A stretch of DNA of 64,000 nucleotides from contig SJCO01000001.1 of assembly GCA_005217565.1 (NCBI GenBank), forward strand, positions 1 to 64,000, given 5' to 3'. How positions within the stretch are numbered: the stretch's first letter is position 1; each line of letters starts with the position of its first letter. A program made the translations under genes and the position numbers. This stretch comes from Puteibacter caeruleilacunae. Its GTDB lineage: Bacteria; Bacteroidota; Bacteroidia; Bacteroidales; Prolixibacteraceae. Of the stretch, positions 10,686-29,860 are shown piece by piece. Under the pieces are notes generated by a model. The model did not search any database and was not told the origin of the DNA. It was given only the letters and a program-made list of their open reading frames with translations.

Positions 10686-13600
10686 ATGTTTATGAGAAAA
10701 ATTCTATTTATTCTTGCAATGTGCTTATCATTGTTTGGTAGTGCATATGCTCAACAAACGGTAACTGGTACGGTTACTGATGAGGATGGCCTTGGAATCC
10801 CCGGAGTATCCGTTATTGAGAAAGGGACAAATAATGGAGTTGTTACTTCAATTGATGGTGAATATTCACTAAGTGTTCCTGCTGATGCTATTTTATCTTT
10901 TTCATTTGTTGGTATGACCACAGTTGAGGAGGCGGTTAATGGACGATCAGTAATTAATGTAACTTTAGTAAGTGATGCTGTTGGTATTGACGAGGTGCGT
11001 ATTGTCGCGGCACTTGGAGTAAAAAGACAAGCACGATCGATGGGATATATGACTCAAGCTGTTGGTGGAACTGATCTTGTACAATCTAATACCCCTAACG
11101 TTGCAAGTGCTTTGTCAGGAAAACTGGCTGGAGTAAATATTACAAATGCAAACCAGATAGATGGAGGTACTTCCAGAATAGTTATCCGTGGTAACAACAA
11201 TATTACAGGGAATAATCAACCTCTTTTTATTGTTGATGGTATTCCTATAGAAAATAATGTATCTGTTAATACCAGTGGAACACAGGAGAATACATCTAGT
11301 GTGTCAGATTATGGTACTGGGATCAATTATTTAAATCCTGATGACATCGAAGAAATGAATGTTTTGAAGGGACCTGCGGCAGCTGCACTTTATGGAGCCA
11401 GGGGAGCGAATGGCGTTATCCTTATTACCACAAAAAAAGGTTCGAAAAAAGAAGGCGTTGGTATAAGCTATACATTTAATACTAAAATAACCGATCCTTA
11501 TCGATTCAGAGAACAGCAAAATGTATATGGGTATGGTGGATTAGCTATGCCAATGTATACTGCTGATAATGATCTTATGTATGAGAAGGATTCAGAAGGA
11601 AATACTCTTTATCCTCGACAAAAATGGAACGGTGACCGCTATGAAGGTATTTATGGACAGATGCCTCATGGGTTGTGGACTTTCGATGCAACGGCATTTA
11701 CCTGGCATGGTTACTCTACTTCCTGGGGTAGAAAAATGGATGGTAAGCTAATTAAATGGTGGGATGGTGAGATGAGACCGCATTCTCCTCAGCCGGATAA
11801 TCAAGAGTATTACTATCGAAATGGTATTCAAAACTCACATAATATCTCATTCTCAAATGCAGGTGATTTTGGATCAGTACGTGTAGGTATTGGACATGTG
11901 AGTAATGATGCAGTGGTGTATAATAGTAATTACAATAAGACAAACGTTACTATTGGATCGATACTGGATATTTCAGATGTTTTAGATGCAGAATTAAGTG
12001 CATCATATAGCGATTATTCCAGACTTAATGGTATGGATATGACCACATCTAACGATTATTTCACAAAATTTATTTACAACTACCCTGTTGACTACAGACC
12101 AGAGTTGGATCATCAGAATTATAAGCGAGAAGATGGAACGAAAAATAGCCATGGAAATGGTACCGTAAATCCATATGGTATTAATGCTTATGATGTATTC
12201 TGGAATATCTACGAAAAGAACAAAACACAACAGCGTAATCAAATGTTAGGTGCTGTTAAGTTGGTTTATACTCCACTTGACTGGTTGAGTTTTATGGCAA
12301 GGAGTGGTATTGATTATAATAATCAGGAAATTGAAGAGCGTCATAAACCTACCGATATTACTGGACTTAGAGGTTACTATTTTCACAGCATGGCCAAAGA
12401 AGTTGTTACTAATTTCGATTTCTTGGCTACGGCAACAAAAGATAACTTGTTCCCAGATATAAATGCAAGTTTCTCTTTTGGAGGAACAAGTTGGGATAGA
12501 GAAAGATATCTTATGAGTGGACGTAGTGGAAACCGCTTTAAAGATCCTTGGATTTATTCGTTCCAAAATTATGACTTATCACAACAGAACGGTCAGATAA
12601 ATTCAAATCAGGTTCCTAAAGAACAACGCCTGGAAAAAAGAATTAACTCGCTTTATGGATTTATCGATTTAAGTTATTCTAATTTACTATACTTACAAGT
12701 TACCGGACGTAATGACTGGTCTTCAACATTACCTTCTAACAATAACTCTTATTTTTATCCATCAAGTTCATTGAGTTTTGTGTTTAGTGAATTACTAGAG
12801 GATAAAGAATGGTTAACTTTTGGTAAGTTGCGTGTTGCATATGCTGAAGCTGCAAATGATGCAGATCCATATCAGATTTCACCAACGTTTACTTCTGGTT
12901 CTTTTGGTGGTTTCCCAACACATGGGATAAAAGATGTACTTCCTCCGGTTGATTTGGCTCCTCAAACTTCAAGATCGTATGAAGCTGGTATCGATTTAAG
13001 ATTATTTGACAGTCGATTGAAGATTGATGCGACTTATTACAGAACTGTGTCGGATAACCAAATTATGAGTGCGCCTATTCCTGTTTCTTCAGGTTATTCT
13101 AACGTGAAGTTCAATTCCGGAGAGATGGAAAATAAAGGTTTCGAGCTTGTAGCTAGTTACGATATTATCCGCGAAAGAGATTTAAGTTGGACATTGGGCG
13201 TGAATGGCTCAAATAATAAAAACACATTGCTTTCATTGGACGGAGTAAATGAAACCATCATAATCGGACAATTCTTTGGTGGTAATGGCCCTGTAATCCA
13301 GGTTGATGTTGGTGAAGAGTATGGTAATATTTATGGCTGGGATTACGTATTAAATGATAAAGGAAATAGAATTGTTGAAGAGCGTAAAGATAATGATGGT
13401 AACGTAGTTGGAACACTTTATAAAACTACAACCGACCGTGTAAAAATGGGTAATTCAACTCCTGATCTTATTGGTGGTATAAATAATAGCCTTCGTTGGA
13501 AAAACTTTAATCTATATGCTTTAGTTGACTTTAGTTGGGGTGCTGATATTTGGAGTGGTGACTATGCAACGTCATTATCATCAGGTGTTAGTCCGGCAAC

Positions 13601-14042
13601 ATTGTTAGAAAGAAATGGGGGAGGACTACCTTATACCTATCCTGATGGAACTCAAGCTAACCATGGAATAATAATGGAAGGTGATTTAGAAAATGGTACA
13701 CCAAACGATCATGTTGTTCATTATATCTGGAAATATGGTCGTCTGGGATCTTGGGGAGCATATAACTTATCTGCACCTTCGATTCTGGAAAACAATTGGA
13801 TTAAGATGAGAGAGATAACATTGAGTTATACCGTACCGCATGATATAGTTCGAAAAACTAAAGTATTACAAAACGCTAGGATTTCTGTTACTGGTCGTGA
13901 TTTATTCTATATCTACTCTTCATTACCTGATAAAATTAATCCAGAAGCAACAAGTTTAACTGCAGGAAATGCACAAGGACTTATGTTTGGTGCTTTGCCT
14001 GGAATGAGATCTGTTAGTTTTAGTTTAAATGTTGAGTTCTAA
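10686..14042 (+). CDS. SusC/RagA-type TonB-dependent outer-membrane receptor
   Basis: A 1118-residue receptor with a signal peptide (MFMRKILFILAMCLSLFGSAYAQ). A carboxypeptidase-regulatory-like domain follows (about 24-105, GTVTDEDGLGIPGVSV and the IDGEYSLSV strand). The plug domain (about 115-245, with GAAALYGARGANGVILITTKKG) and the 22-stranded barrel to the C-terminal NVEF complete it. The plug start has the AALGVKRQARSMGY form instead of the common VGYGT form, which marks a distinct SusC subgroup. An ATG at 10692 is a possible alternative start. The SusD partner follows after 24 bp. Together they would bind and import oligosaccharides. Confidence 0.95.
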   Translation: MFMRKILFILAMCLSLFGSAYAQQTVTGTVTDEDGLGIPGVSVIEKGTNNGVVTSIDGEYSLSVPADAILSFSFVGMTTVEEAVNGRSVINVTLVSDAVGIDEVRIVAALGVKRQARSMGYMTQAVGGTDLVQSNTPNVASALSGKLAGVNITNANQIDGGTSRIVIRGNNNITGNNQPLFIVDGIPIENNVSVNTSGTQENTSSVSDYGTGINYLNPDDIEEMNVLKGPAAAALYGARGANGVILITTKKGSKKEGVGISYTFNTKITDPYRFREQQNVYGYGGLAMPMYTADNDLMYEKDSEGNTLYPRQKWNGDRYEGIYGQMPHGLWTFDATAFTWHGYSTSWGRKMDGKLIKWWDGEMRPHSPQPDNQEYYYRNGIQNSHNISFSNAGDFGSVRVGIGHVSNDAVVYNSNYNKTNVTIGSILDISDVLDAELSASYSDYSRLNGMDMTTSNDYFTKFIYNYPVDYRPELDHQNYKREDGTKNSHGNGTVNPYGINAYDVFWNIYEKNKTQQRNQMLGAVKLVYTPLDWLSFMARSGIDYNNQEIEERHKPTDITGLRGYYFHSMAKEVVTNFDFLATATKDNLFPDINASFSFGGTSWDRERYLMSGRSGNRFKDPWIYSFQNYDLSQQNGQINSNQVPKEQRLEKRINSLYGFIDLSYSNLLYLQVTGRNDWSSTLPSNNNSYFYPSSSLSFVFSELLEDKEWLTFGKLRVAYAEAANDADPYQISPTFTSGSFGGFPTHGIKDVLPPVDLAPQTSRSYEAGIDLRLFDSRLKIDATYYRTVSDNQIMSAPIPVSSGYSNVKFNSGEMENKGFELVASYDIIRERDLSWTLGVNGSNNKNTLLSLDGVNETIIIGQFFGGNGPVIQVDVGEEYGNIYGWDYVLNDKGNRIVEERKDNDGNVVGTLYKTTTDRVKMGNSTPDLIGGINNSLRWKNFNLYALVDFSWGADIWSGDYATSLSSGVSPATLLERNGGGLPYTYPDGTQANHGIIMEGDLENGTPNDHVVHYIWKYGRLGSWGAYNLSAPSILENNWIKMREITLSYTVPHDIVRKTKVLQNARISVTGRDLFYIYSSLPDKINPEATSLTAGNAQGLMFGALPGMRSVSFSLNVEF

Positions 14043-14066
14043 TCGTAATCACAAAAAATTAGAAGT

Positions 14067-15674
14067 ATGAAAATGATAAAAATATATTCAATTTTGCTTA
14101 TCCTATTGTCTGTGAGTTTTATGCAAAGCTGTACCGAAGACTTTGAGGAAATGAATAAGGATCCTTTAAATCCTACTGAAGGATCGATCCCTACGGTTTT
14201 TAATAAATATGTTAGTTCATTGCTTTACGCGGGAGCAGAGATAAGTGGATTCCATAATGGTTACTATTACTATATGACACAACAGCTTGGTAATGCAGCT
14301 CCACGTTATGTGTTGGCTAATTTATCTAATCAAATGTGGACAGATTATTATAAAGCACTAAAAAATGCTCGTTGGTTAGAAAATGAACTGGATAATTCTA
14401 CGCTAAAGGTTGATAATGTGAGAGCTTGTTTAAATATTTTGATTGCATTTGAAACTTTACGAACTTCCGATTATTACGGTGATATGCCTTTTTCGAAAGC
14501 TGGAAAAGGATCTCAGGGTAGTGAGTATTTTCGCGTAGAGTACGACAAGCATGAGGATATCTATAAGACTTGCCTGGATATGTTAAAAAATGCAGTTGAG
14601 AGCTTTTCTTCGGATCCTGATCAAATGAGTTTAGGAGGTGGTGACATTCTCTTTAGTGGGGATTATGAGATGTGGAAAAAGTTTGCGAACTCCATTCGTT
14701 TGCGTTATGCACTGCAGATTTCTGGCGTTGACAACGCTCAGGCAACTACACATATTGGCAATATATTGGGAGATGCAGCAAAGTATCCATTAATCTCTGG
14801 AGATGAGGATCTAGGTTTTTGGCCCACTAGAGTGCCTGGTTTAACAATTGAAACTCGTAATTGGTCCTTAAATCAAGATAGCCCATTGTGTTTGGGAACT
14901 ACTATGTGGAGTTGGATGTCAGAAAATGATAATGTAGATGGCTCTGGAATTATAGATCCTCGTTGTAAAGTGTTTTTTGAAACAAATAATGATGGGGAAT
15001 GGAAGGCGCAAAAGCAGCTTGATCCTGTTGATTCGCAAGGACGTGGTGCCTATAATGGTGGTGCCTATCCTAGTGGAAGAAGTGAAGCTGCGACGTTGCA
15101 AGAGTGGGAAAATAAGACTGAGGGTTGCAAATTCTCTCCTGTGAATATTTACTATGCGAATGATAAAGAGTTTTTCCCTGAGTTATTCATAAGCGTTGCA
15201 GAGATAAATTTTATTAAAGCAGAGATATATAACCGAGGAATTGGTGTTACTAAAAATGCAGCTACAGCCAAAAGTGAATACGAAGCAGGTATTCGGTCAT
15301 CTATCAATTATTGGTATAATTTAGTTGAGCTTAAAGCTAGCAAATGGTATTTGTTTAAGCCTGAACTAGGTGAAGACGATATTGATGATTACTTGGCATT
15401 ACCAGTGGTGGCTTATAAGACGAATGAAAGCGAGGCACTAGAGCAAATTTATGCTCAAGAGTGGATTGCATTGTTCCGTGAACCTGCAGTAGCGTATAAT
15501 CTTTATAGAAGGACTGAAGCTACTCCTCACGATAGATCTTCATCAAGTCATGAAAATAACTTTTATCGACTTCCTTATCCGGAAGAAGAAAAGAACTTTA
15601 ATGCAGACAATTTTAATGCAGCCCTTAATGGAAGGTCAAATACTGTAGACCATAAATTATTCTGGCATAAATAA
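14067..15674 (+). CDS. SusD/RagB-family surface lipoprotein (SusD-like group 2)
   Basis: A 535-residue lipoprotein that forms the lid of the preceding SusC. The signal ends in a lipobox with the acylated Cys22 (SFMQSC), followed by acidic TEDFEEMNKDP, the N-terminal signature of the SusD-like_2 subgroup that pairs with AALG-type SusCs. The body is helical with TPR-like segments (YKALKNARWLENEL, AEINFIKAEIYNRG). A GRSEAATLQE-type loop and a C-terminal RLPYPEEEKNFN motif are also typical. The alternative start at 14073 (MIKIYS) would not change the signal. The gene is followed by a hairpin terminator. Confidence 0.93.
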   Translation: MKMIKIYSILLILLSVSFMQSCTEDFEEMNKDPLNPTEGSIPTVFNKYVSSLLYAGAEISGFHNGYYYYMTQQLGNAAPRYVLANLSNQMWTDYYKALKNARWLENELDNSTLKVDNVRACLNILIAFETLRTSDYYGDMPFSKAGKGSQGSEYFRVEYDKHEDIYKTCLDMLKNAVESFSSDPDQMSLGGGDILFSGDYEMWKKFANSIRLRYALQISGVDNAQATTHIGNILGDAAKYPLISGDEDLGFWPTRVPGLTIETRNWSLNQDSPLCLGTTMWSWMSENDNVDGSGIIDPRCKVFFETNNDGEWKAQKQLDPVDSQGRGAYNGGAYPSGRSEAATLQEWENKTEGCKFSPVNIYYANDKEFFPELFISVAEINFIKAEIYNRGIGVTKNAATAKSEYEAGIRSSINYWYNLVELKASKWYLFKPELGEDDIDDYLALPVVAYKTNESEALEQIYAQEWIALFREPAVAYNLYRRTEATPHDRSSSSHENNFYRLPYPEEEKNFNADNFNAALNGRSNTVDHKLFWHK

Positions 15675-16095: not shown

Positions 16096-19000
16096 ATGAG
16101 AAAAAGGCTTATTGTTAGTACATGCCGATTTGTTCTAAATGTAAAGAACATGATCCGTGGTGTAGGAGGAGTAGTTTTATTTGTAGCCTTATTGCAAGCG
16201 CTTACATTTAATAGCTATGCTCAAATGAAGTCGCAAGTTATTACTGGTACAGTTACTTCTGTATCGAAAGAACCAATCCCTGGAGTTTCAATTGCTATTG
16301 ATGGTACTACTATTGGTACTGTTTCTGATTTTGATGGAAAATACTCAATTAAAGTTAACTCTCCTGATCAGGTGCTCATTTTTACTTTTATTGGTATGGA
16401 ACCAAAGATGGTGAAAGTGGGAGAGCAATCTGTTATTAATGTTGTTTTGGATGAATCAAATGTTGAGTTGGAAGAGGTTGTAGCAGTTGGATATGGAACA
16501 ATGAAGAAAAGTGACGTTACTGGTGCAGTTGCTTCTGTACGTAGTGAAGATATCGTCGCATCTGGCGGAGCTACAATTGAGCAGGCGTTAGCGGGACGCA
16601 CTGCTGGGGTTATTATCAATAATAATGATAATGCACCAGGTGCTGGACTTAACATTAAAATTCGTGGAACAAATTCTATTAACGCAAGTTCTGCCCCTCT
16701 TTACGTAATTGATGGCTTCCCTGTTGAAGGGAGTTTTAATGAAGGAGGTTCTCTTGAATCATCTGGACAGAGTCCTCTTGCAGGTATCGATCCTAATGAT
16801 ATTGAGTCAATCGATATTCTGAAGGATGCTTCGGCAACTGCTATTTACGGTGCGCGAGGAGCTAATGGTGTTGTAATTGTTACAACAAAAAGCGGTCGTG
16901 ATGGAAAGATGAAAGTGAGTTTTTCCGCTAAGTCTGGCGTTCAGCAAATGATAAAACAATATAAGGCATTGGATGCAGTTGGATATGCCAAATTTCAGCA
17001 TCATCGTTATTTCCCATACGACAAACGCACAGAGGCTCCTACAGAAGAGGAGGACAATTATAAGTGGTGGAATTATGAAACTTATAAGGATTCGACCAAT
17101 ACTAATTGGATGGATGAAATCACTCAGATGGGTGAGATGCAAAATTACAATCTATCGGTGTCTGGAGGAAATCAGAAAGGGAATTACCTTGCTTCAGTAG
17201 GATATTATAAAAACAAAGGAATTGTTAAAGAGACTGACTTTACAAGATATACAGGTAATTTTAAAGCTACAGGAAAGCCAAACGATTGGCTGGAATTAGC
17301 TTTTACGACCAGATTCTCGTTTTCGGAGAATAATGGAACGGTAACGATCAACTCAGAAGGAGCAGCAAATTATGCGGGTATATTACAGCAGGGAATTAGA
17401 ACAAAACCACTGAAATCTCCTAACGAAGCATTTCTGGATATGGATGATAGTGATGGGGTGACTGGAAATCCTTTAGCCACTCTTAAAAATGTCGACATGT
17501 TAAGAGAAAATTTTCAATCAATTACAAATGCCTCAGTCACTATCATTCCCTGGAAAGATGTTCGTATTAAATCATTGGTTGGAATGACGCATAATAAAAA
17601 CGATTTTTATTATTATGCTCCTTCTACCACTAGTTGGGGTGCTAATTTCAATGGTCGGGCCAGAATAACAAATAATAAATCTGTCTCTTGGTTGAATGAA
17701 AATACGGTCTCTGTTAATAAGAAATTTGGTGATCATCGATTAAATGCGTTGGCTGGTTTTACAGTACAGTCAAATAATCGATTCTCAACAGAGATGGAAG
17801 CTTCAAACTTCCCAATTGAAGTTCTAGGATATCAGAATATTAGTGTTGGTGAAAGCTATTCTGCTCCTAAGTCTCATGAAGAGGAATACTTGCTTCTATC
17901 TTATCTTGGAAGAGTAAACTACAATTATAAGAATAAGTATTTGGTGACTGGTTCCTTTCGTGCAGATGGCTCTTCTAAATTTGCAGAGAATAATAAATGG
18001 GGATACTTTCCATCTATAGCATTAGCATGGAGGGTGAGTGAGGAGTCATTTTTACAGGCATTGGGATTCTTCGATAACCTTAAGTTGCGTGCAGGTTGGG
18101 GGGAAACAGGTAATCCTAATATTGCTCCTTACCAATCGCTTTCCAATTATGGTCTTACTAAATATCCTACTGGAGAAGATCAGTTAAATACAGGTGTTTT
18201 TCCTATTAATACAGGTAATCCTAACTTGATGTGGGAAACATCAGTTCAATCAAATGTTGGTCTTGATTTAGCTATTTTCGATGCACGACTTTCAGTTACC
18301 ATCGATGCATATTTAAAGGAGACTAAAGATTTGTTATTAAAGGGAGACATTCCTCCATCATTAGGCTTTGATACTTACTTGTATAACTCAGGGAAAGTAA
18401 AGAACAAAGGGATCGAAGTTGCCCTAAATGGATTAATCGTTGATCGTAAGTTTAAATGGACCTCCGACTTTAACATTGCATTCAATAAGAATGAGGTTAC
18501 AGATTTAGGAGAACTGACTACCTCTGATTGGTTAACTGTGCCGGGATCTAAAAACTATTCAACTGCGATATTGAAGGAAGGTGAAGCTATCGGATTATGG
18601 TATGGTTATGAAACTGATGGATTATGGCAGCAAAGTGAGTTTAACTGGAATGGCTCAAAATATGAATTGGCAACTGATGCTGAAGGAAATTCACCTGCAG
18701 CATTACCGTCAGTACAACCTGGTATGTGGAAATTTAAAGATTTGAGTGGACCTAATGGTACTCCTGATGGTAAGATTGATGCCTATGATAAAAAGATCAT
18801 TGGAAAGTCGCAGCCTAAGTTTACTGGAGGTTTGAATAACCGATTTGAGTATGGGAATTTTGATCTAGCTGTATTTATGGAGTGGAGTTATGGACGTGAT
18901 ATCTACAATGCCAATAATCGCTTCTTCATAGAGCCTGCCAATAGTGCTGCTAATACTATCGATGTTGACTATTGGTTGCCTATTCAGTATGAGTTGGATG

Positions 19001-19359
19001 AGAATGGCATGGAAACGGATGTTGTGCTAGATCCGGGAAATCCTGATGGAAGGTATCCTGGACCAGGAAGAGGAGATGCTTACCAGGATATGCATAATGC
19101 ATATATCGAGGATGGTTCTTATTTGAGAATTAAGAATGTTACTTTGGGATACAAGTTTAAGCCTCAAGTTTTGAAATCGTTAAATGTGAAGTCTATGAGG
19201 TTGTATGTGAATATCTTGAACCTGTACACATTTACAAACTACTCAGGTTATGATCCTAATGTGAATGCTCAGAATTTAGGAGGATTAAGACCTGGGTACG
19301 ACTATAGTTCATATCCTTTGGCCAGGACTTACATGGTTGGTGTGAATGTTGATTTTTAA
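16096..19359 (+). CDS. SusC/RagA-type TonB-dependent outer-membrane receptor
   Basis: A 1087-residue receptor. An unusually long N-terminus (about 43 residues, with the hydrophobic core at GVVLFVALLQALTF) ends at SYAQ. Next are a carboxypeptidase-regulatory-like domain (ITGTVTSVSKEPIPGVSI to GMEP), the usual VAVGYGTMKKSDVTGAV TonB-box/plug start, the plug ending in IYGARGANGVVIVTTK, and the barrel to the C-terminal NVDF. It belongs to the common SusC subgroup, unlike the first receptor. Its SusD partner starts almost directly after it, with the fucosidase next, so it likely imports the oligosaccharides made by the downstream enzymes. Confidence 0.95.
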   Translation: MRKRLIVSTCRFVLNVKNMIRGVGGVVLFVALLQALTFNSYAQMKSQVITGTVTSVSKEPIPGVSIAIDGTTIGTVSDFDGKYSIKVNSPDQVLIFTFIGMEPKMVKVGEQSVINVVLDESNVELEEVVAVGYGTMKKSDVTGAVASVRSEDIVASGGATIEQALAGRTAGVIINNNDNAPGAGLNIKIRGTNSINASSAPLYVIDGFPVEGSFNEGGSLESSGQSPLAGIDPNDIESIDILKDASATAIYGARGANGVVIVTTKSGRDGKMKVSFSAKSGVQQMIKQYKALDAVGYAKFQHHRYFPYDKRTEAPTEEEDNYKWWNYETYKDSTNTNWMDEITQMGEMQNYNLSVSGGNQKGNYLASVGYYKNKGIVKETDFTRYTGNFKATGKPNDWLELAFTTRFSFSENNGTVTINSEGAANYAGILQQGIRTKPLKSPNEAFLDMDDSDGVTGNPLATLKNVDMLRENFQSITNASVTIIPWKDVRIKSLVGMTHNKNDFYYYAPSTTSWGANFNGRARITNNKSVSWLNENTVSVNKKFGDHRLNALAGFTVQSNNRFSTEMEASNFPIEVLGYQNISVGESYSAPKSHEEEYLLLSYLGRVNYNYKNKYLVTGSFRADGSSKFAENNKWGYFPSIALAWRVSEESFLQALGFFDNLKLRAGWGETGNPNIAPYQSLSNYGLTKYPTGEDQLNTGVFPINTGNPNLMWETSVQSNVGLDLAIFDARLSVTIDAYLKETKDLLLKGDIPPSLGFDTYLYNSGKVKNKGIEVALNGLIVDRKFKWTSDFNIAFNKNEVTDLGELTTSDWLTVPGSKNYSTAILKEGEAIGLWYGYETDGLWQQSEFNWNGSKYELATDAEGNSPAALPSVQPGMWKFKDLSGPNGTPDGKIDAYDKKIIGKSQPKFTGGLNNRFEYGNFDLAVFMEWSYGRDIYNANNRFFIEPANSAANTIDVDYWLPIQYELDENGMETDVVLDPGNPDGRYPGPGRGDAYQDMHNAYIEDGSYLRIKNVTLGYKFKPQVLKSLNVKSMRLYVNILNLYTFTNYSGYDPNVNAQNLGGLRPGYDYSSYPLARTYMVGVNVDF

Positions 19360-19385
19360 TGCAGAATCCTTTAATGTTTAAACAG

Positions 19386-21149
19386 ATGAAGAAGATTAAA
19401 TATATAGCACTTGTTTTATTGATTGCATCGATGTCGTGTACTGATATGCTCGATGAATCTCCTAAGTCTACACTTACTCCCGATAATTTATTCGAGACGG
19501 TAGATGATGCCAAGGCAGCAGCAATGGGTATGTACGAGGGACTTATTGTTAGTAATGAGAGTCCTAATGGTAACTGGGGAGTTCTTTTTCCAGTCTATGG
19601 ATGGGGAATTATGGGAACTGATATCTGGAGTATTTCTGTGGCAAACAAAGGAGTACAATCCAGGTTCTCTCGCTATTCATTAAGCGCAGCCGAATCGCAA
19701 GTTAGGTCGAATTGGACCGACTCGTATAAGGTGATTAACCGTGCAAATAACATTATAGCATACGTCAACAATATTAGTGCCTCAGAAGAGACAATTAATA
19801 CATTTCTAGCAGAAGCTCATTTTATACGTGCCTTGTGCTACATGGATTTGGTGCAGTTTTATGGTGGTGTGCCATTGCGACTGACTCCAACATCAGATAT
19901 CAAGGAAGACTTGGGAGAACCTCGGGCAACAGAGGAAGCAACCTGGGCTCAAGTTTTTGCTGATTTAGAATTTGCTGAACAGTATTTGCCGGAAGTGACC
20001 AATCCAGGTAGGGCAACTAAATGGGCTGCAAAAGGATTGCTGGCAAAAGCTTATTTAACCCGAGGTGGATATCCTGTTGGTAATTATCAGGAACCTGAAT
20101 GGTTCGATAAAGCTGCAAAAAAAGCTTATGAGGTAATCAGTCAGAGTGGCAAGGGGGTAAATCCAACTACTCAAGGTGATGCAGGTGCCTTTAAAGAATA
20201 TGGTAGTCAGTTTATTGTTTCTGGTGAAAACAGTCCTGAATCATTATTTGAATTGCAGTTTCAGGAAGCCGACTATGGTAGTGGCTGGGGTTATAGAACA
20301 ATTGCTGGAGGTAAGCGCTGGGATAATACTGATTACGGAAACTTCTATGCCATGTATGGAGGTAGTGTTGTTGGTTCTGATTTTGCCTTAAGCTTTAATG
20401 ATGATGATATTCGTTTTCAATGGAGTATCGGTCCTTATGGATTAAATCCCAAAGGACGTATTGCTAAGCCATTAACGCAATGGATGCCGAATAAACATCG
20501 TTGGGAAAGTATACCTGGAAATGCATGGAAGTCGTCGAACAATGCTATTGTATTACGAATGGCTGATGTGTATCTATTATTCGCAGAGGCAGCAAATGAA
20601 GCTACTGGCGATCCAAATGACAGTCAGTATGGAATGAGCGCTTATGAGGCAATCAATGTGGTACGCGAGCGTGCACAGGTGCCAGTTATAGATGATACCT
20701 ATTTGATGAAGGATTCCCCATTTAGCTCTGTCGATTTGCTTTATGGTATGTCCTTCCAGAGTTTTAAAAAATCGGATTCAAACTACGATGGAAGACATGT
20801 ATATTATACTGGTTCTCTACAAGAGCGGTTCAGCGCTGCAGTGTTAATGGAGCGTGGCTGGGAATTATGCTTCGAACGTCATCGTTGGTTTGATTTGAAG
20901 CGTACCGGTAAGCTGGTAGATTTCGCTCAAAATACGCAGATTGCTGCCATGGGTAAATTGGGTAAAGATGCTTTGTTTGATCCAATCGATAAGAGCGAAT
21001 GGCTCAACGCTTCCAATGAACCTAAAAAAGGGAATCAGGTATGGCCTCCTTCAGGAATTCAGGATCATAATATTTACATCCCAATACCAGATGTGGAGAT
21101 TCAGATAAATCCTGAAATGTCACAAGCCGATCAAAACGTTGGATATTAA
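19386..21149 (+). CDS. SusD/RagB-family surface glycan-binding lipoprotein
   Basis: A 587-residue SusD. The start at 19386 gives a clean lipoprotein signal ending in Cys18 (IASMSC); in-frame ATGs at 19359 and 19374 would only lengthen the N-terminus. Typical motifs are DMLDESPKSTLTPDNLF after the signal, AEAHFIRALCYMDLVQFYGGVPL, WAAKGLLAKAYLTRGG and the C-terminal ERGWELCFERHRWFDLKRTGKL followed by NPEMSQADQNVGY. These belong to the canonical SusD/RagB family (N-terminal TPR-like half, C-terminal binding half). It pairs with the preceding SusC. Confidence 0.95.
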   Translation: MKKIKYIALVLLIASMSCTDMLDESPKSTLTPDNLFETVDDAKAAAMGMYEGLIVSNESPNGNWGVLFPVYGWGIMGTDIWSISVANKGVQSRFSRYSLSAAESQVRSNWTDSYKVINRANNIIAYVNNISASEETINTFLAEAHFIRALCYMDLVQFYGGVPLRLTPTSDIKEDLGEPRATEEATWAQVFADLEFAEQYLPEVTNPGRATKWAAKGLLAKAYLTRGGYPVGNYQEPEWFDKAAKKAYEVISQSGKGVNPTTQGDAGAFKEYGSQFIVSGENSPESLFELQFQEADYGSGWGYRTIAGGKRWDNTDYGNFYAMYGGSVVGSDFALSFNDDDIRFQWSIGPYGLNPKGRIAKPLTQWMPNKHRWESIPGNAWKSSNNAIVLRMADVYLLFAEAANEATGDPNDSQYGMSAYEAINVVRERAQVPVIDDTYLMKDSPFSSVDLLYGMSFQSFKKSDSNYDGRHVYYTGSLQERFSAAVLMERGWELCFERHRWFDLKRTGKLVDFAQNTQIAAMGKLGKDALFDPIDKSEWLNASNEPKKGNQVWPPSGIQDHNIYIPIPDVEIQINPEMSQADQNVGY

Positions 21150-21173
21150 TTGTTGAACTAGAAATTAAATGAT

Positions 21174-22622
21174 ATGAGGCATATTATTTACCTACTGATA
21201 CTCATATTAGTCTGTATGGGATGTATTGCGACTGATGAAGAAAAGTTATCCTGGGAGGAAATGAATGCCTCAAAAGAAGAAACCAGGGAGTGGTTTAATG
21301 ATGCTAAGTTCGGCATGTTTATTCATTGGGGACTTTATTCTATTCCAGGAGGTGTTTGGAAGGACAAAAAAATGGAAGAGATGGGACGTCCTCATGTGGC
21401 TGAATGGATCCAGTATGTGGCTCACATTTCACGTGATGAATATGCTCAATTGGCATCAGATTTTAATCCAGTAAATTTTAATGCCGATTCAATAGCTAAA
21501 CTCGCAAAAGATGCTGGTATGAAATATTTAGTCATCACGTCAAAACATCACGATGGTTTTGCACTTTACGATTCAGAAGTCAGTAAGTATGACGTGATTG
21601 ACGCCACTCCCTTTAAAAGGGATATTGTACAGGAACTGTATGATGCATGCAAGAAATATGGTATTGATTTTGGTCTCTATTATTCGCATAATATTGATTG
21701 GATGGATGGTGGTGATTGCCAATATTCAGTGATAAAGGAGATGAATGATCAGGAGGGCAAAAATACTGTAATATTTGGTCCAAATCTTTGGGATCCTAGT
21801 AATAACTCGTTTGAGGAATATCTTGACGAAAAGGCTTATCCTCAGGTAAGAGAGATCCTAAGCAAGTTTCCTGGCATGACTACGCTATGGTATGACATGT
21901 CGCGTTACATGACTCCAGAGCAGAGTCTGAAATTCTATGAACTAGCTTATAAGTATCAACCTAATATGTTGGTGAACGAGCGAGTTGGAAATGGGTATGG
22001 TGATTTTGATATTCCTGGAGACAATAAGATACCTGCTGTTCCGGATGAAATAACTAAGCCGTGGCAAACAGTGGGTACCTTGAATAACTCATGGGGATAC
22101 AAATCTTATGATCATGACTGGAAATCAGTGAAGGAATTGCTCTTTTGGTTGATAGAGATCGTGAGCAAGGGAGGTAACTATATGCTCAATATTGGTCCCG
22201 ATGCTTTGGGTAATGTACCAGAGGAAAGTGTTGATAATCTCCGTGCTGTTGGGCAATGGTTGAAAGTAAATGGGAAGGCAATCTATGGAACAAATAAGTG
22301 GAGGGTAACACATGAAGGTCCTACAGTCATAAAAATGGAAGGAACCAAGAAACGACAAGAGCATGGTTTTAAGATAGATTTTACTGCTGATGACTTTTGG
22401 TTTACATGTCGAGACAACAGGGTATTTGCTATTTCATTGGTTAGTAGCTCAAAGGAGATAATAGTTAGATCATTGTCTGATACAGAAGAGAGAGTGAAGA
22501 GTGTGCAATTGCTTGGGACTGTAGAAAAGTTGGAATGGAAACAGACAAATGATGGTTTATTGGTTAAGTTACCCGAGCAATTGCCTTCAGAGATCGGTTA
22601 TGTGTTAGAGATTGGTCTTTAA
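21174..22622 (+). CDS. GH29 alpha-L-fucosidase, lipoprotein
   Basis: A 482-residue enzyme that removes alpha-linked L-fucose. The lipobox VCMGC puts the lipidated cysteine at 17. The GH29 signature [16 protein letters not shown] is at about residues 44-59, and the barrel has [17 protein letters not shown] and GIDFGLYYS. The predicted nucleophile is Asp241 in T-L-W-Y-D-M. In place of a longer C-terminal lectin domain there is a compact beta domain (about 390-482). It lies 24 bp after the SusD and is part of the same operon. The acid/base residue varies in GH29 and was not assigned. The substrate is likely terminal fucose on the target glycan. Confidence 0.93.
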
Positions 22623-22647
22623 TGAGTGCATATAAATTTGAAGAATT

Positions 22648-24570
22648 ATGCGTAAGTATATATTGATCCTAATAGGTATTGTATTTATTATAAATGTTGG
22701 GTATAGTCAGACAGTTTACTATGTCTCTAATAATGGTTCAGACAAACATACAGGGACTCCGAAGAAACCTTTTGCTACTATTCGAAAGGCTTTAGAGATA
22801 ATGAAACCAGGAGATGTTTGTCGTGTCAGAGGTGGCGTATATCGTGAGACTGTTCATGTGAAACAATCAGGATACACAGGGAAACCAATTCGGATTGAAT
22901 CTTACAATGGAGAGAAAGTTATTCTGGATGGTACCAACGAAGTGAAAAGTTCCTGGAAAAAATGGAAGAAGAATATTTACAAAACAAAAATGCCGGAGGT
23001 TTTTGAACAGTTGTTTCAGGATCGGGAAATGATGACAGAGGCCAGGTGGCCGAATTGTAATATGCCTGATCAATTATGGGATCGATCAACTTGGGCTACT
23101 TCAGGAGAGGGAAGTAGATATGGCAAAATGGTGGATGCTAGATTGGCCGAGACCGATGTTGACTGGACTGGTGCGATTGCGGTGCTTAATGTTGCGCATC
23201 AATTTAGAAGTTGGTCGAGGAAAGTTTTGAAGCATGACAAGCATGCCAATTCTTTTACCTATAAGAAAAATCTAAAGCCCATTACGTCGTACGCCAACAA
23301 AACGAAAGAATGGGAGGATGATCTGTATTATTTGACAGGAAAATTAGAAGCCTTGGATGCGCCTAATGAGTGGTTTCTTGATAAAAAGACTAAGCTGCTT
23401 TATGTCTATACTACCGGTGATGTCAAAAATAACATCTATCGATACAAGTGTCGTGATTTTGGTCTTGTTGCTAGTAAAATGAGTCATATTGAAATAGTAG
23501 GACTTTGTTTCTTCGGGAGTACAATAAAGTTGTCAAATTGTAACAATTGTCTTGTTGAGAATTGTCGTTTTGAATATCCTGCCTACAATCGAGAATTTAA
23601 CGATCCAGAGGTACCTGCTAATACTGTAGACACGTATGTTAGAGGCAATAATAACCGCATCTTGAATAACTATATATCCTACAGTCAAGGGAATGGTATG
23701 GTTATTCAAGGAGGGAACAATCATGTAGAGAATAATATAATACATGATGTGGCCTGGACAGGACAGGGATTTGGAATTCAGCTTTATTCAACAGGGAAAG
23801 AAGGATTCCTTGTAACGAAAAATACGATCTATAATACTGGATATTCAGGGATGAGATTAGATGGTGAAGGAGGTTGGACTGCTTCGTACAATCATGTTCA
23901 TCATACGGCTCTGATATCAAAAGACTGTGCGGCTATTCAGACAGGTAACTGGAGAATTAAAGGTAGTGTAATACATCATAATTGGGTACATGATTGCTTT
24001 ACCGTGGGTAAGCATCAAGCTGGTCTTTACGGAGGATTGGGTATTCGTGGTGATGATCAAACCCGAGGACTGACTGTTCATCACAATGTGGTATGGAATT
24101 GTGGAAGGGATGGTATTATTGTGAAAGGAGATCGTAATATGGTTTACAATAATACTGTGTTTGCCATTGGTTCTAACGAAAAAGAAGGAAACTATATTAG
24201 TATGCATACCATGCCTGAGCCACATAAGCCTTGGCTAAAGCAGGCACCATTGCTTACGGTCCAAAATGAGAATAGTTTGATATTCAATAATCTAGCTTTT
24301 AATATAGTAGGGGATCGGAAAAAGACAGCATATCAGTATCTGAGCAATCTGTCAACAAACTACAATGAAAAGATCCTGCCATTAGTGGATCCTGAAAATT
24401 TCAACTTCTCACCTATAGAAGGCTCTTCAATTATTGACGCAGGTACTTATTTGCAAGGGTATACAGATAACTTTAATGGAATCCTTCCAGATATTGGAGC
24501 TTATGAATTTGGAGATACTTGGAAAGCTGGAGCAGATTGGGATCCGTATTGCGATCCACAAGGGAATTGA
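22648..24570 (+). CDS. Right-handed parallel beta-helix carbohydrate-active protein
   Basis: A 640-residue secreted protein with a signal peptide (ending VGYSQ). It begins TVYYVSNNGSDKHTGTPKKPF, the DUF1565-type cap found on many beta-helix glycosidases and lyases, then AMRGGVYRETV-like sequence (RVRGGVYRETVHV). The middle (about 290-500) is a run of helix coils with N-N-x-I-x-N and HHN motifs (NNRILNNYISYS, NHVENNIIHDV, SYNHVHHTA). The end has the IDAGTYLQGYTDNFNGILPDIGAYEFG signature in parts. GH141-type (fucosidase/xylanase) or PL6/GH120-like activity are options; family assignment needs a profile search. The position after GH29 favours a role on fucose-containing glycan. Confidence 0.75.
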   Translation: MRKYILILIGIVFIINVGYSQTVYYVSNNGSDKHTGTPKKPFATIRKALEIMKPGDVCRVRGGVYRETVHVKQSGYTGKPIRIESYNGEKVILDGTNEVKSSWKKWKKNIYKTKMPEVFEQLFQDREMMTEARWPNCNMPDQLWDRSTWATSGEGSRYGKMVDARLAETDVDWTGAIAVLNVAHQFRSWSRKVLKHDKHANSFTYKKNLKPITSYANKTKEWEDDLYYLTGKLEALDAPNEWFLDKKTKLLYVYTTGDVKNNIYRYKCRDFGLVASKMSHIEIVGLCFFGSTIKLSNCNNCLVENCRFEYPAYNREFNDPEVPANTVDTYVRGNNNRILNNYISYSQGNGMVIQGGNNHVENNIIHDVAWTGQGFGIQLYSTGKEGFLVTKNTIYNTGYSGMRLDGEGGWTASYNHVHHTALISKDCAAIQTGNWRIKGSVIHHNWVHDCFTVGKHQAGLYGGLGIRGDDQTRGLTVHHNVVWNCGRDGIIVKGDRNMVYNNTVFAIGSNEKEGNYISMHTMPEPHKPWLKQAPLLTVQNENSLIFNNLAFNIVGDRKKTAYQYLSNLSTNYNEKILPLVDPENFNFSPIEGSSIIDAGTYLQGYTDNFNGILPDIGAYEFGDTWKAGADWDPYCDPQGN

Positions 24571-24602
24571 TATTAGTATTAAAAACAGTGAAATTTAATA
24601 AG

Positions 24603-25397
24603 ATGAAGCGCAAAGATTTTATAACCCGTTTAGGTTTAGTTGCGGGTTTTGCCATATGTCCAAAACTTTTCTACGCTAGTGTAAAAAAGGTAAAAACGAA
24701 TTATCAAAAATGTAAGGAAGAGTGGCGAAAATTGTGTGGAGTAAATGCAGATAAAGAACCTTTCACTTATGTAAATAATGAGGAAGGGATTCCAAATGTT
24801 CTGTTGTATGGAGATTCCATTTCAATAGGATATACTCCAACGGTAAGATCAGAACTTAAGGGAAAAGCTAATGTGTATAGAATACATCGAAATGGAGCGT
24901 CGAGTAACCAATTTATTAAATACATCGAAGAAATGAAAAACAGTATGTTTCAACCATATCTAAATGAAGGTTGGAGCTTTAATTGGGATGTTATTCATTT
25001 TAATGTTGGCTTACATGATTTAAAATACTTAGCTGAAGGAAACCTGGACAAGGAAAATGGTAAGCAAATGACTTCAATTGCAAATTATAAAGGGAATTTA
25101 AAGGCAATTTGTAAGTATCTTATGAGTGAGTATCCTGAAGCTGTTTTAGTTTTTGCAACAACTACTCCTGTGCCGGAAGGAGAACCTGGACGGTTTATGG
25201 GTGATGAGTTAAAATACAATAAGGCTGCAATGGAGATTTTGTCGCAATTTCCTCAAATAAAAATAAATGACCTACATGAATTTGTACGACCAAATTTTGA
25301 GGATTGGAAAATTAAGCCTGGTAATGTTCATTATAATGTGAAAGGGAAGCAGCAACAAGGGAAAGAAGTTGCAAGAACGATAATTAAATACTTGTAG
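24603..25397 (+). CDS. SGNH/GDSL-type hydrolase, probable carbohydrate esterase
   Basis: A 264-residue protein with an N-terminal hydrophobic signal (GLVAGFAICPKLFYA). The start at 24603 replaces a longer frame that overlaps the previous gene. Block I is YGDSISIGY with the nucleophile serine. Block III reads HFNVGLHDLKYL in place of the usual GxND. The C-terminal block has PGNVHYN, with the catalytic-type His but Asn where Asp is usual in DxxH. This pattern matches the HFN-GLHDL subgroup of SGNH enzymes known in PULs. It probably removes acetyl or other acyl esters from sugars; the exact ester is unknown. Confidence 0.8.
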   Translation: MKRKDFITRLGLVAGFAICPKLFYASVKKVKTNYQKCKEEWRKLCGVNADKEPFTYVNNEEGIPNVLLYGDSISIGYTPTVRSELKGKANVYRIHRNGASSNQFIKYIEEMKNSMFQPYLNEGWSFNWDVIHFNVGLHDLKYLAEGNLDKENGKQMTSIANYKGNLKAICKYLMSEYPEAVLVFATTTPVPEGEPGRFMGDELKYNKAAMEILSQFPQIKINDLHEFVRPNFEDWKIKPGNVHYNVKGKQQQGKEVARTIIKYL

Positions 25398-25444
25398 TCA
25401 GGATAGTTTAGATCTGATGCAAAGCTGATACACAGAAAAATATT

Positions 25445-27250
25445 ATGGATTTAAAAAGTTTAAAACCAATAGCATTATTGTTACCCTTAATGTTGGGCAA
25501 ACATGTTATTGCTTCAGATACCTCTGTTCATCCTAATGTGGTTGTAGTGATAACAGATGATCAAGGTTATGGCGACTTAGGGTGTCATGGTAATGAAATC
25601 ATCAAAACACCGAATTTGGACAGCTTCTATAAACAGGCAATTCGATTTACTAATTTTCATGTTTCTCCTACCTGTGCACCAACCCGGTCTTCAATAATGA
25701 CTGGTAGATATGCTAATAGAGTCGGAGTCTGGCACACCATTGGTGGGAGAAGCTTACTATGGGACGATGAAGTTACAATGGCAGATGTTTTTGCTAAGAA
25801 TGGTTATACTAACGGTTTGTTTGGGAAATGGCATTTAGGAGATAATTATCCTTTCCGACCTGAAGATAGAGGTTTTCATGAAGTTGTTGTTCATGGAGGT
25901 GGAGGCATTACTCAAGGTCCTGATTATTGGGGAAATGATTATTTCGACGATTTTTATCGTCATAATGGTAAGTTTGAAAGATATAATGGGTATTGTACTG
26001 ATGTATTTTTCGATGAAGCATTGAAGTTTATAGAGCAAAATAAGTCGCAACCATTTTTCTGTTATATTTCAACAAATGCTCCTCATGGTCCTCTGAATGT
26101 TCCTGCCACATATCATGAAATGTATAAAGACGAAGAGAGGCTGACCAAACAGCAGCGTCGATTTTATGGGATGATAACCAATATTGATGATAATTTCAAG
26201 CGCTTGAGAGATCGACTGAAGGAATTAGAGTTAGATGAGAATACGATATTAATCTACATGACAGATAACGGCTCAGCATATGGTTATCGCACAAGTAAAG
26301 GTATTTCATATGGCAATAATGGAGGAATGCGTGGCGCTAAAAATAGTGAATACGAAGGTGGTCACCGTGTTCCGTTTTTTATTAGTTATCCGGCAGAGAA
26401 TTTAACGGTGAATAGAGATATTGACCAGCTTGCTGCGCATATCGATATGTTGCCAACATTTATTGATCTGTGTAAACTTGATAAAATTCCTACACACAAA
26501 GCTTTTGATGGAAAGAGCTTGGCCCCTAAAATTCTTGATAAAAAGGATGAGCCGAAGGATCGTGTGTTAGTGGTTGATTCGCAACGAAGGCAAAATCTGG
26601 TTAAGTGGCGTAAATCTGCGGTTATGAAGGGAAAGTGGAGATTAATTAATGGGAAGGAACTGTATGACTTAAATACTGATCCAATGCAGAAGAGTGATGT
26701 AGCCTTAGGAAATCCAAATATTGTGAAGGAGCTTAGACTTGGTTATGAAAAGTGGTGGGAATCTATTATTTCTGAGGGAGCAAATGAAAGATATGCGTAC
26801 ATTCAAGTTGGAGCTAACGCTGAAAATCCTGTTCGTATAAGTGCACATGACATGCACACAGAAAGTACGCATGCTCATAGTCAGCATGGACCGTTATTGG
26901 GATTAAATCCACTGGGTATTTTTAAAGTGGAAGTGTTACATGAAGGTGATTACACCATAAGTCTATGCCGATTTCCTCGGGAGAGTATGCTGAATTTCAA
27001 CGATAATGTTGATGCTGTTAGTCCGAGTTTTGAAATAGAAAAAGGAATGCCTGCAAGCGTTTCCATAGATATCAAGAAGGCTTTCTTAAGTATGGCAGAT
27101 CGAGATGTAAATGTTACTGTGCTGGGGAATACAAAGGAGGCACAATTCAAACTACACCTGCAACCGGGGAAGTTTGATCTGGATGCTTTTTTTCTAGATG
27201 ACAATGGAGTAAAGTATCCTCCATACTATATCTATATTGAGAAAAACTGA
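25445..27250 (+). CDS. S1-family sulfatase (formylglycine type)
   Basis: A 601-residue exported enzyme. The metal-binding start VVVITDDQGYGDLGCHG is at about residues 30-46. The modification motif C-A-P-T-R-S gives the formylglycine precursor Cys77. GKWHLGD follows near 125, and MTDNGSAYGY carries the second Asp-Asn metal pair. The C-terminal part (about 430-601) is an extra beta-rich domain of roughly 170 residues beyond the usual S1 core. It would remove sulfate esters from the glycan. A sulfatase-activating radical SAM enzyme is not in the window. It is followed by a strong terminator, closing the first operon. Confidence 0.93.
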   Translation: MDLKSLKPIALLLPLMLGKHVIASDTSVHPNVVVVITDDQGYGDLGCHGNEIIKTPNLDSFYKQAIRFTNFHVSPTCAPTRSSIMTGRYANRVGVWHTIGGRSLLWDDEVTMADVFAKNGYTNGLFGKWHLGDNYPFRPEDRGFHEVVVHGGGGITQGPDYWGNDYFDDFYRHNGKFERYNGYCTDVFFDEALKFIEQNKSQPFFCYISTNAPHGPLNVPATYHEMYKDEERLTKQQRRFYGMITNIDDNFKRLRDRLKELELDENTILIYMTDNGSAYGYRTSKGISYGNNGGMRGAKNSEYEGGHRVPFFISYPAENLTVNRDIDQLAAHIDMLPTFIDLCKLDKIPTHKAFDGKSLAPKILDKKDEPKDRVLVVDSQRRQNLVKWRKSAVMKGKWRLINGKELYDLNTDPMQKSDVALGNPNIVKELRLGYEKWWESIISEGANERYAYIQVGANAENPVRISAHDMHTESTHAHSQHGPLLGLNPLGIFKVEVLHEGDYTISLCRFPRESMLNFNDNVDAVSPSFEIEKGMPASVSIDIKKAFLSMADRDVNVTVLGNTKEAQFKLHLQPGKFDLDAFFLDDNGVKYPPYYIYIEKN

Positions 27251-27289: not shown

Positions 27290-27326
27290 AACCTACAGTC
27301 TAAATTTAAGACTGTAGGTTTGCTTT
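27290..27326 (+). terminator. Strong hairpin terminator after the first sulfatase
   Basis: The 12-bp arms AACCTACAGTCT (27290-27301) and AGACTGTAGGTT (27309-27320) are perfectly complementary, with a 7-base loop and a following T-rich tract. It closes the SusCD/GH29/sulfatase operon. Confidence 0.9.
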
Positions 27327-27427: not shown

Positions 27428-29860
27428 ATGAATTATCTCAAGGGTATATTCTTTCTGTTAATTTTTTGCTGTTGGAGTACATTAATGGGATTCTCTCAGA
27501 ACCAACGAATCTCAAAATCTCCATTTGCCATTCTAGATGTTTCAAACGCTGAGATCGTTAATGATTCGGTTGATGTAATAAAAGAATCAATTTCAGATTT
27601 GAGGTGGGGATTGAGATTAGAAGTGGAAGACGAGAATAATATGCTGGAGGTAAGAAATCGAAAAGCTGATCCAATTCAACTATCAAAAGTATTTCGATTA
27701 ATTAAGCAGAATGCTGAACGCCGACCTTATTTTTTTATACCTGTTATAATAAACTATCACGGAGATTATTCAAAACTAGACACGCTGATTGAATCCTTGG
27801 AATTAGGAGAAAAAGTAGTTAGTAAGGAGCTGTTAGCGCAAGACAAGACAGTAAGAGAATATATCAGGCTTAAAAGACAGTTCGTATTGTTTTCAGAATC
27901 TCCCAATACGAGTAAGTATGTTTTGCCCCTGAATGATTTCTTCGGGACCAAGGATCGTGAGGGATTGTTTTGTTCTTATGTATTCACTGATTTTGACGAA
28001 GCACAGCAAGGAGATAGCTTCTCGAGCCTGACTTTTGGTAATGAGAGTAGATTTATTCAGCACATAATTTCAGATTGGAGAACGAAGGGGAGGTATCCTT
28101 GCTATATACAAACAAAATGGTATAATGCTCAATTTAATTCTCTGTCCCGAGCTATTGAGAGCTTCCCCGTTTGTGAAGGAGAAGTGTCGTTATCGTCTGA
28201 TAAGGATTCTGTTATAACGTATTGGAACGAATTCCCAGAAGCAAAGACTTACCAACGGTTTTGTTTTCCTGTTGATGATGAGGCCGAATTTAGATTAACT
28301 CCGCATGCTGCAGGTTATTCGTATGAGCCATCAAATATCAATTATACTGCTAAAGATCCTAAGGAGAATGTAAGATTTAATCGGTCGAAAGTGCATTTAT
28401 CAGCTAACCTCAAAGGTTACTACAAGTTTGATGGAAATATACTTGATGAAACGCTTCTTAATAGTGGTTTTAAGGTATACGGGACAGACTTTGAATCGGA
28501 TAATTTACGAGGTACGGTAATCGACTTTAAGAAAGGTGATTTTGTTGAATTACCTAAAATCAGGTATTTCAATATTGCTGATAATAGTTTTTCTATTGCC
28601 ACATGGATTTATTTAACCTCGAAAGAGGATTATCACGCTATTGTATGTAATAATGAAAATACCTTCAGGAAAGGATTGCAATTTGCCATTCGTGATGACA
28701 AACCTTATGTTGGGTTTTGGCATATCGATCTAAAGGGAAATACAACAATAAAACCTCGAAAGTGGTATCATTTTGCTTGTGTTTACAATGAAGATTTAAA
28801 GCGACTTGCGATTTACATAAATGGTAAGCTGGATGCAGTCGCATATGATTTTCTATCATTTAAGGGATCGAAAGGAAAGCCTTTGTTTTTAGGCCGCAAT
28901 TCTATTGGTCATTATTTTGTAGGAAGACTGGATGAACTGATGATATGGGATCGTGCGCTCGGAGAAGATGATATTGAGTGGGTGTTTAAAGAAGGAATGA
29001 ATTCAATACAAATAAAACGATATTGGTGGACAACAAATGTATTTAAACTGGTTTGGGGTACTGCATTATTGCTTTTTATTGTATTTCTTTTTATCAATTG
29101 GAGGAAGAAACGAAGTCAGATTCGCAGAATTAAAAGCGTTGAAAGTATTGATCAACAGACCAAGTTGTCTATTTATCTCTTTGGAAACTTTAAAATTGTC
29201 GATACACAAGGGAATGATTATACTAAATTATTCACCCCAAAGATCAAGAGTGTTTTTATAGCTATCCTGCTCAATTCCTTTGGGAAGGATGGAGATGGTA
29301 TCGATTCGAAGAAATTAACAGAGTTATTATGGCGAGAGGCATCACATAAAAATGCATTGAATAATCGACGTGTTGCAATGAAGCGCTTGCGTGATGTTTT
29401 GAGTGAAATTGATGGACTTGAGTTGATTGCTGAAGAACAATTGTTTAGAATCGAGACTGATATTGATGTTTTTGTTGATTTGGGCGAATACTGTAAAGTC
29501 ATTGAATCAAGTAATAATAAAGATACTCTGGTACTTGCCAAAGTTCTGTCACGTGGTTGTTTTCTTGAGAATATTGAAGAAGAATGGGCAGATGAATTTA
29601 AAAATGAAATAACGAATCAGGTTATTGAGAGTTTGGCTAATTTAATTGATGATGAATCAATATCAGCAAAACACAAATTGGAATTAATAAATGTGTTGTT
29701 GTTGAATGACGCTGTGGATGAATTTGCTGTGTCAAAGAAAATTGAACTATTGAAGAGAATGGATAAGCATAAGTCTGCGGCATTGACAGAGAAGAAGTTT
29801 AAAGAGGATTACTTGAAATTTTATGGCGAAGATTATGAAGGAGATATTTTCTCTTCATAA
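27428..29860 (+). CDS. Membrane-spanning LamG/SARP-like one-component regulator
   Basis: An 810-residue protein with an unusual order of parts. A signal peptide (about 1-24) leads into a periplasmic region. Residues about 345-525 form a LamG/concanavalin-like domain (SIATWIYLTSKEDYHAIV, KWYHFACVYNEDLKRLAIYINGK in parts, VGRLDELMIWDRAL), which can bind sugars. One membrane helix follows (about 540-557, LVWGTALLLFIVFLFINW). The cytoplasmic part has a winged helix typical of SARP/OmpR-C-type regulators (about 579-675, LSIYLFGNFKIVD, LTELLWREASHKNALNNRR) and a helical activation domain (about 680-810). It likely senses a glycan fragment outside the inner membrane and controls nearby genes. The role is inferred from domains and position. 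Confidence 0.8.
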   Translation: MNYLKGIFFLLIFCCWSTLMGFSQNQRISKSPFAILDVSNAEIVNDSVDVIKESISDLRWGLRLEVEDENNMLEVRNRKADPIQLSKVFRLIKQNAERRPYFFIPVIINYHGDYSKLDTLIESLELGEKVVSKELLAQDKTVREYIRLKRQFVLFSESPNTSKYVLPLNDFFGTKDREGLFCSYVFTDFDEAQQGDSFSSLTFGNESRFIQHIISDWRTKGRYPCYIQTKWYNAQFNSLSRAIESFPVCEGEVSLSSDKDSVITYWNEFPEAKTYQRFCFPVDDEAEFRLTPHAAGYSYEPSNINYTAKDPKENVRFNRSKVHLSANLKGYYKFDGNILDETLLNSGFKVYGTDFESDNLRGTVIDFKKGDFVELPKIRYFNIADNSFSIATWIYLTSKEDYHAIVCNNENTFRKGLQFAIRDDKPYVGFWHIDLKGNTTIKPRKWYHFACVYNEDLKRLAIYINGKLDAVAYDFLSFKGSKGKPLFLGRNSIGHYFVGRLDELMIWDRALGEDDIEWVFKEGMNSIQIKRYWWTTNVFKLVWGTALLLFIVFLFINWRKKRSQIRRIKSVESIDQQTKLSIYLFGNFKIVDTQGNDYTKLFTPKIKSVFIAILLNSFGKDGDGIDSKKLTELLWREASHKNALNNRRVAMKRLRDVLSEIDGLELIAEEQLFRIETDIDVFVDLGEYCKVIESSNNKDTLVLAKVLSRGCFLENIEEEWADEFKNEITNQVIESLANLIDDESISAKHKLELINVLLLNDAVDEFAVSKKIELLKRMDKHKSAALTEKKFKEDYLKFYGEDYEGDIFSS

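Follow-up and report, generated by a model that had tools for sequence, protein, structure and literature searches.

A gene in a 64,000-nucleotide stretch of the Puteibacter caeruleilacunae genome (contig SJCO01000001.1, positions 1 to 64,000; "the window" in the following) codes for a protein which probably acts as an inner-membrane one-component activator: it would sense a glycan-type ligand in the periplasm and bind, by a SARP-type head, to 11-bp direct repeats, with the neighboring SusC2 operon as its target. The features of the window that bear on this reading are reported in Table 1.

Table 1. Features of the regulator and of the neighboring operons, in window positions; residue numbers refer to the regulator protein.
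Feature	Position	Strand	Evidence
Preceding SusC1/SusD1 pair	10686..15674	+	SusC1 by Pfam; SusD1 by clustering with SusD-like neighbors
Candidate operator, TTGTAATGC twice at 11 bp; ends 70 bp before SusC2 start codon	16006..16025	+	
Adjacent PUL operon (SusC2, SusD2, GH29, beta-helix, GDSL, sulfatase); proposed target	16096..27250	+	Pfam; SusD2 by PF14322
Terminator-like hairpin, sulfatase/regulator gap	27290..27320	+	Terminator scan: 12 pairs, T-rich tail
Membrane-spanning regulator, 810 aa	27428..29860	+	ORF; relatives share layout
Signal sequence, residues 1-24	27428..27499	+	Hydrophobic 4-22; helix 2-22 in AF2 model
N-terminal beta/alpha TIM-like domain, residues 33-255; PI-PLC-like without catalytic histidines	27524..28192	+	AF2 secondary structure, profile comparison
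Small beta domain, residues 264-306	28217..28345	+	AF2 model
LamG / ConA-like lectin domain, residues 315-525	28370..29002	+	PF13385 E=2e-21; Foldseek AbnA; profile match 5hon E=2e-14
Single transmembrane helix, residues 538-556	29039..29095	+	Hydropathy
Predicted winged-helix DNA-binding domain, residues 578-683	29159..29476	+	hhalign to BTAD/SARP profile 99.6%; AF2 model
Predicted BTAD-like helical domain, residues 684-800	29477..29827	+	hhalign; weak colinear AfsR match, E=0.42

Domain organization of the regulator

Hydropathy analysis of the protein reveals a hydrophobic N-terminus (residues 4-22); inside the protein there is one membrane segment (538-556), followed by the basic residues WRKKRSQIRRIK. 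A single transmembrane segment occurs at the same place, just ahead of the C-terminal part, in all of the aligned relatives (32 out of 32). By these topology signals, the protein is predicted to cross the inner membrane once, with the sensor in the periplasm and the DNA-binding head in the cytoplasm. Laminin_G_3 (PF13385, residues 370-516; 77.2 bits, cut-off 27.6, E=2e-21) is the sole Pfam match: kinase, receiver and AraC domains and the Reg_prop propeller are all absent by Pfam, and neither the whole protein type nor its head is covered by an NCBIfam or Pfam model.

The AF2 model, built from the alignment of 32 relatives (mean pLDDT 84), features a strand/helix alternation at residues 33-255, a small beta block at 264-306 and a LamG sandwich at 315-525. 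In the C-terminal part, where pLDDT is about 90, strands and helices (580-683) are followed by helices only (684-799); the linker between membrane segment and winged helix (562-576) is of low confidence. A fold search with the full model ranked the arabinanase AbnA first, its domain 4 being the matching part; this search yields ConA-like lectin folds only and is uninformative on the other domains, because LamG dominates the full model. Hydropathy, Pfam and the AF2 model bear out the signal peptide, the LamG-type domain and the single membrane helix reported in the preliminary description. LamG alone, in contrast, does not account for the sensor, as had been assumed: a TIM-like domain is present too in the window protein, and Kelch repeats replace LamG in some of its relatives.

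The N-terminal domain (residues about 33-255), omitted from the preliminary description, consists of about 220 residues and is predicted to adopt a beta/alpha, TIM-like fold. The TIM-barrel model PF25506 matches 7 out of 19 family members, the window protein not being among them; in the source genome it finds no match, the controls being likewise silent, and comparison of the domain with PDB profiles yielded chance matches only. Comparison with four Bacteroidota PI-PLC proteins scored 67% (E=5e-5; controls 0.2-0.7%), with the matching stretches in the same order. The match starts past the first conserved histidine of the PI-PLCs: in the family's N-terminal alignment (A4) no histidine is conserved and both catalytic ones are absent, whereas the PI-PLC alignment (A6) has an invariant H19. 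It is therefore probable, on these alignments, that the domain is an inactive PI-PLC-like one. The same domain pair is found in a PI-PLC protein of another locus (L101, 1063-3381, minus strand), where an apparent LamG-like domain lies upstream of the PLC and the conserved histidine is retained.

Neither BTAD nor Trans_reg_C matches the C-terminal winged helix/BTAD of the window protein above the curated Pfam cut-offs, and weak matches are seen in 2 and 1 of the 32 relatives. The family profile A2, made from 30 C-termini, picks out distant proteins in the genomes of the phylum, with E values as low as 2e-17; two of them (L081, L084) contain Trans_reg_C and BTAD above the Pfam cut-offs. When aligned by hhalign to ten such proteins, the family profile matches over 236 columns with a probability of 99.6% (E=3.9e-24), while unrelated profile pairs, used as negative controls, score 0.2-0.7% (0.7% for the SARP/BTAD comparison). 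A PDB profile search of the C-terminal half mostly returned TPR-like chance matches, along with a weak, colinear match to AfsR (E=0.42); the fold predicted for this part from the single sequence (pLDDT 43) was unusable.

The absence of Pfam matches in the C-terminal half and the TPR-like hits might suggest that this half does not bind DNA, and that its likeness to SARPs is merely one of helical repeats. This is very improbable: the hhalign alignment (E=4e-24) extends across both winged helix and BTAD, the family profile directly matches proteins in which both domains exceed the cut-offs, and SARP-type 11-bp repeats are found near the family's operons. The C-terminal end of the protein is thus, as judged from profiles and model, a SARP-type winged helix followed by a BTAD. 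This confirms the SARP/OmpR-type winged helix and helical activation-like domain described earlier: the direct Pfam search is empty, yet a winged-helix profile is matched.

Distribution of the family and genes next to its members

Seven proteins with the head of the window regulator are encoded in the source genome (8 Mb). In the taxonomic family, homologs are present at E<=1e-30 in 76 out of 140 genomes and 13 out of 23 genera, and the arrangement recurs, relatives having the same layout. In the phylum the head is matched in 41 out of 395 genomes, the weaker matches being ordinary SARP-like proteins. The sensors vary, and may be of the TIM-LamG type, composed of two LamG domains (L040, L058), or made of Kelch repeats, while the membrane helix and the DNA-binding head stay the same. 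The family is widespread in Bacteroidota and apparently unnamed; no description of it was found in the open-access literature, which is weak evidence. DUF6377 proteins, which we take to be SusR-like, do not match the family's profile and were discarded as relatives. In three loci (L147, L149, L150) genes with this head form tandem pairs, one full-length and the other shorter.

Chances appear about even that these proteins represent a phylum-wide, undescribed class: SARP-type regulators tethered to the membrane, whose periplasmic sensors are exchangeable and which bind to 11-bp direct repeats, a dead PI-PLC barrel having become a ligand sensor. If so, carbohydrate loci would be under a further type of membrane one-component control, separate from SusR and HTCS.

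Neighboring genes differ among sensor types. Kelch-type members are mostly found no more than three genes away from SusC/SusD (L043, L062, L063, L065, L066, L067); L043 and L065 additionally feature an SSS transporter and GH130-like genes. The largest LamG groups adjoin either genes for an NapC-like multihaem cytochrome, for Gfo/Idh oxidoreductases and for glycosyltransferases, or Gfo/Idh together with DUF1080 genes (gene names, here and for the two Kelch loci, were read from the sequences), and the two members with a double LamG adjoin recR. In many genera (L044-L055, L167-L186) the regulator forms a conserved unit with an NapC-like multihaem cytochrome, a Gfo/Idh oxidoreductase and two glycosyltransferases, possibly tied to 3-keto sugar chemistry.

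In the tree, the only partner of the window gene is a paralog from the same genome, L038 (32% identity, SH-aLRT 98). No ortholog was found in other genomes, and a search for related loci with the window gene gave one distant LamG match only. Both the window gene and L038 are located at SusC/SusD with a GH29-type gene, the paralog likewise facing SusC and a GH29-like gene. Since the window gene has no ortholog outside its own genome, its PUL link is drawn from these two loci. Of the seven members in the source genome, three are found at up to 10 kb from a PF14322 SusD, a distance which covers 30% of the genome as background; a fourth, at L043, has another SusD type nearby.

PUL association of the family is partial. 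Recurrence next to PULs, on which the preliminary description had made its proposed class depend, holds for the Kelch types and for the clade of the window gene, which are regularly found at SusC/SusD operons; most LamG types, in contrast, lie beside NapC-like cytochrome, Gfo/Idh, 3-keto-glycoside or DUF1080 genes, and the neighbor tables rule out that the family regulates PULs as a rule.

Such neighborhoods leave room for a membrane regulator sensing a metabolite or lipid-type ligand, rather than a PUL glycan, with the window copy controlling genes other than the adjacent PUL. The PLC-like domain suggests a ligand of this kind, and most LamG-type members, being found next to the genes just named or recR, point the same way, as do the three members out of seven near SusD, against the 30% background, and the terminator and separate upstream region which part the window regulator from the operon. 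Yet both members of the clade are located at SusC/SusD with a GH29-type gene, an 11-bp repeat lies ahead of SusC2, and carbohydrate genes are numerous also among the non-PUL neighbors: this alternative is unlikely, although to be reckoned with.

The locus and its candidate operator

The source genome features 140 PF14322 SusD matches, at least 150 sulfatase matches and many HTCS-like propeller proteins, and is that of an extreme sulfated-glycan degrader. The window also contains a group II intron reverse transcriptase/maturase ORF (RVT_1 and GIIM, 3764-5077) and, at the start of another SusC locus, an ECF sigma factor with a FecR-like anti-sigma partner (61435-63160). The SusC1/SusD1 pair is ended by a terminator-like hairpin (15708-15736, terminator scan). 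The regulator had been described as directly following the sulfatase which closes the operon: the position is correct, the gap from the sulfatase stop (27250) to the regulator start (27428) being 177 bp, yet a terminator-like hairpin parts it from the operon. Because of this hairpin, the regulator probably constitutes a transcription unit of its own. A sigma-70 consensus scan remained at chance level.

In regions upstream of the regulators, a period of 11 tops the 32 periods tested (9-40), with 7.7 vs 1.8 per 1000 positions. The core of these repeats reads TTAA(T/C) and is frequently present three times. When five loci from four genera are aligned, the region proves diverged except for a few conserved columns, to which TTAA blocks, spaced by about 23, 11 and 11, belong. 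TTAA-n7-TTAA pairs occur in 14 out of 29 regulator-upstream regions, compared with 4 out of 146 control promoters (Fisher 1e-9). In a held-out set, 60 further loci fetched after the pattern had been fixed, a TTAA pair at 11 bp was found in 30 of 55 loci, compared with 3 of 103 control promoters (Fisher 5e-14); one genus predominates in this set, and in the loci from other genera the motif lies directly upstream in 6 out of 28. Where the regulator is divergent from a neighboring SusC or NapC operon, all held-out loci (26 out of 26) contain the repeat; where the SusC/NapC target is downstream on the same strand, the pair is located between regulator and target in 13 out of 19. Some 11-bp repeat, of any kind, is present in 18 out of 127 control promoters. 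The Gfo/Idh-DUF1080 subclades seldom show the TTAA pattern, and two prospective SusC promoters (L217, L218) carry TTAAY clusters spaced by about 10/12 and 12/12, not 11. The same period is known for SARPs, which bind heptamers with 4-bp spacers (PMC7040171). The enrichment in sequence suggests that 11-bp direct repeats mark the target promoters of the family.

An exact repeat of the 9-mer TTGTAATGC at 11 bp precedes SusC2, while at L038 the interval from regulator to SusC contains copies of ATTTTAATGA with the same 11-bp period. A search of the 8 Mb for the pattern T[GT]TAATG-n4-T[GT]TAATG (TKTAATG) gives exactly 4 copies: 2 are within genes, and the only two intergenic ones are those before SusC2 and before the L038 regulator/SusC. 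As the pattern was written from these two sites, their recovery is by design, and represents a prediction, not a test. No similar repeat was found ahead of the window regulator itself. The site before SusC2 is suggestive as the operator of the window regulator, and the DNA target would be sought there, at about 16.0 kb, not at the promoters at 27 kb or 10 kb proposed in the preliminary description. At 10044-10090 a 12-bp unit (AAAACTTCGTAG-like) occurs four times in tandem; this repeat was set aside as an operator, as it lies about 600 bp ahead of SusC1 and does not contain the family core.

Proposed mechanism and comparison with known systems

In the proposed mechanism, the periplasmic half, composed of the TIM-like pseudo-phospholipase and the ConA-like lectin domain, would bind a ligand; this is probably an oligosaccharide which the adjacent SusC/SusD takes up, most likely one from a fucose-containing sulfated glycan. 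Binding would alter how the cytoplasmic winged helix and BTAD are arranged, as a dimer or in tandem, and these would then settle on the 11-bp-spaced repeats before the target operon and recruit RNA polymerase; in the window, the target would be the SusC2-SusD2-GH29-sulfatase operon. The original idea of a protein binding glycan outside and DNA inside, with no phosphotransfer, fits a one-component, membrane-spanning protein with a SARP-type end and neither kinase nor receiver; "outside", however, has to be read as periplasm. Alternatively, a signal-triggered cleavage in or near the membrane might free a soluble wHTH-BTAD factor, for which the low-confidence linker could serve as cleavage region. 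This is clearly improbable, as the neighbor tables show no protease partner gene recurring beside the family, and SusR-like and ToxR/CadC-like regulators are known to act while tethered (PMC3878776, PMC5430869).

PUL regulators decide which glycan gets a response, and the known membrane types (HTCS, ECF/FecR, SusR) leave some loci with no assigned regulator. With its recognizable head, its single membrane helix and an operator as simple as an 11-bp repeat, the family would make regulons predictable from sequence. DNA recognition of the SARP type, familiar above all from antibiotic control in Streptomyces, would here be working from the membrane.

SusR is already known as a membrane one-component PUL regulator (PMC3878776), so that the signaling logic is not new. 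Like the SusR family (BT3705, BT3091, BT3309, BT2160), the window family appears to consist of inner-membrane one-component proteins with a periplasmic sensor and a cytoplasmic DNA-binding end; direct-repeat operators, predicted ones in the window family, and, for part of its members, location beside PULs are further common traits (PMC3878776). BT2160 belongs to the BT2156-2160 cluster, which includes the 3-keto-glycoside hydrolase BT2157 (PMC3878776, PMC11501099, PMC9007349), and several window-family members are likewise located beside Gfo/Idh and DUF1080 genes. The C-terminal DNA-binding domain of SusR, in contrast, is described as having no similarity to known transcription factors, whereas the window family has a SARP-type head; the repeats predicted for SusR are 67-77 bp apart (PMC3878776), those of the window family 11 bp. 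The distinct class of one-component regulator claimed in the preliminary description is therefore new as a protein family, set apart from SusR by the description of the latter, but not in its logic.

With the SARP/AfsR-type regulators of actinomycetes the family shares a winged helix directly followed by BTAD and 11-bp-period direct repeats near the promoter (PMC7040171); SARPs, however, are soluble and carry the winged helix at the N-terminus, while in the window protein it is C-terminal, behind membrane helix and periplasmic sensor. ToxR/CadC feature, like the window protein, an OmpR-type winged helix, a single membrane helix and a periplasmic sensor (PMC5430869), but they belong to another phylum, lack a BTAD and have an N-terminal winged helix, the domain order being reversed. 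HTCS, numerous in the source genome, are membrane-spanning PUL regulators as well; they are composed of Reg_prop propeller, kinase, receiver and AraC domain, none of which is found by Pfam in the window protein.
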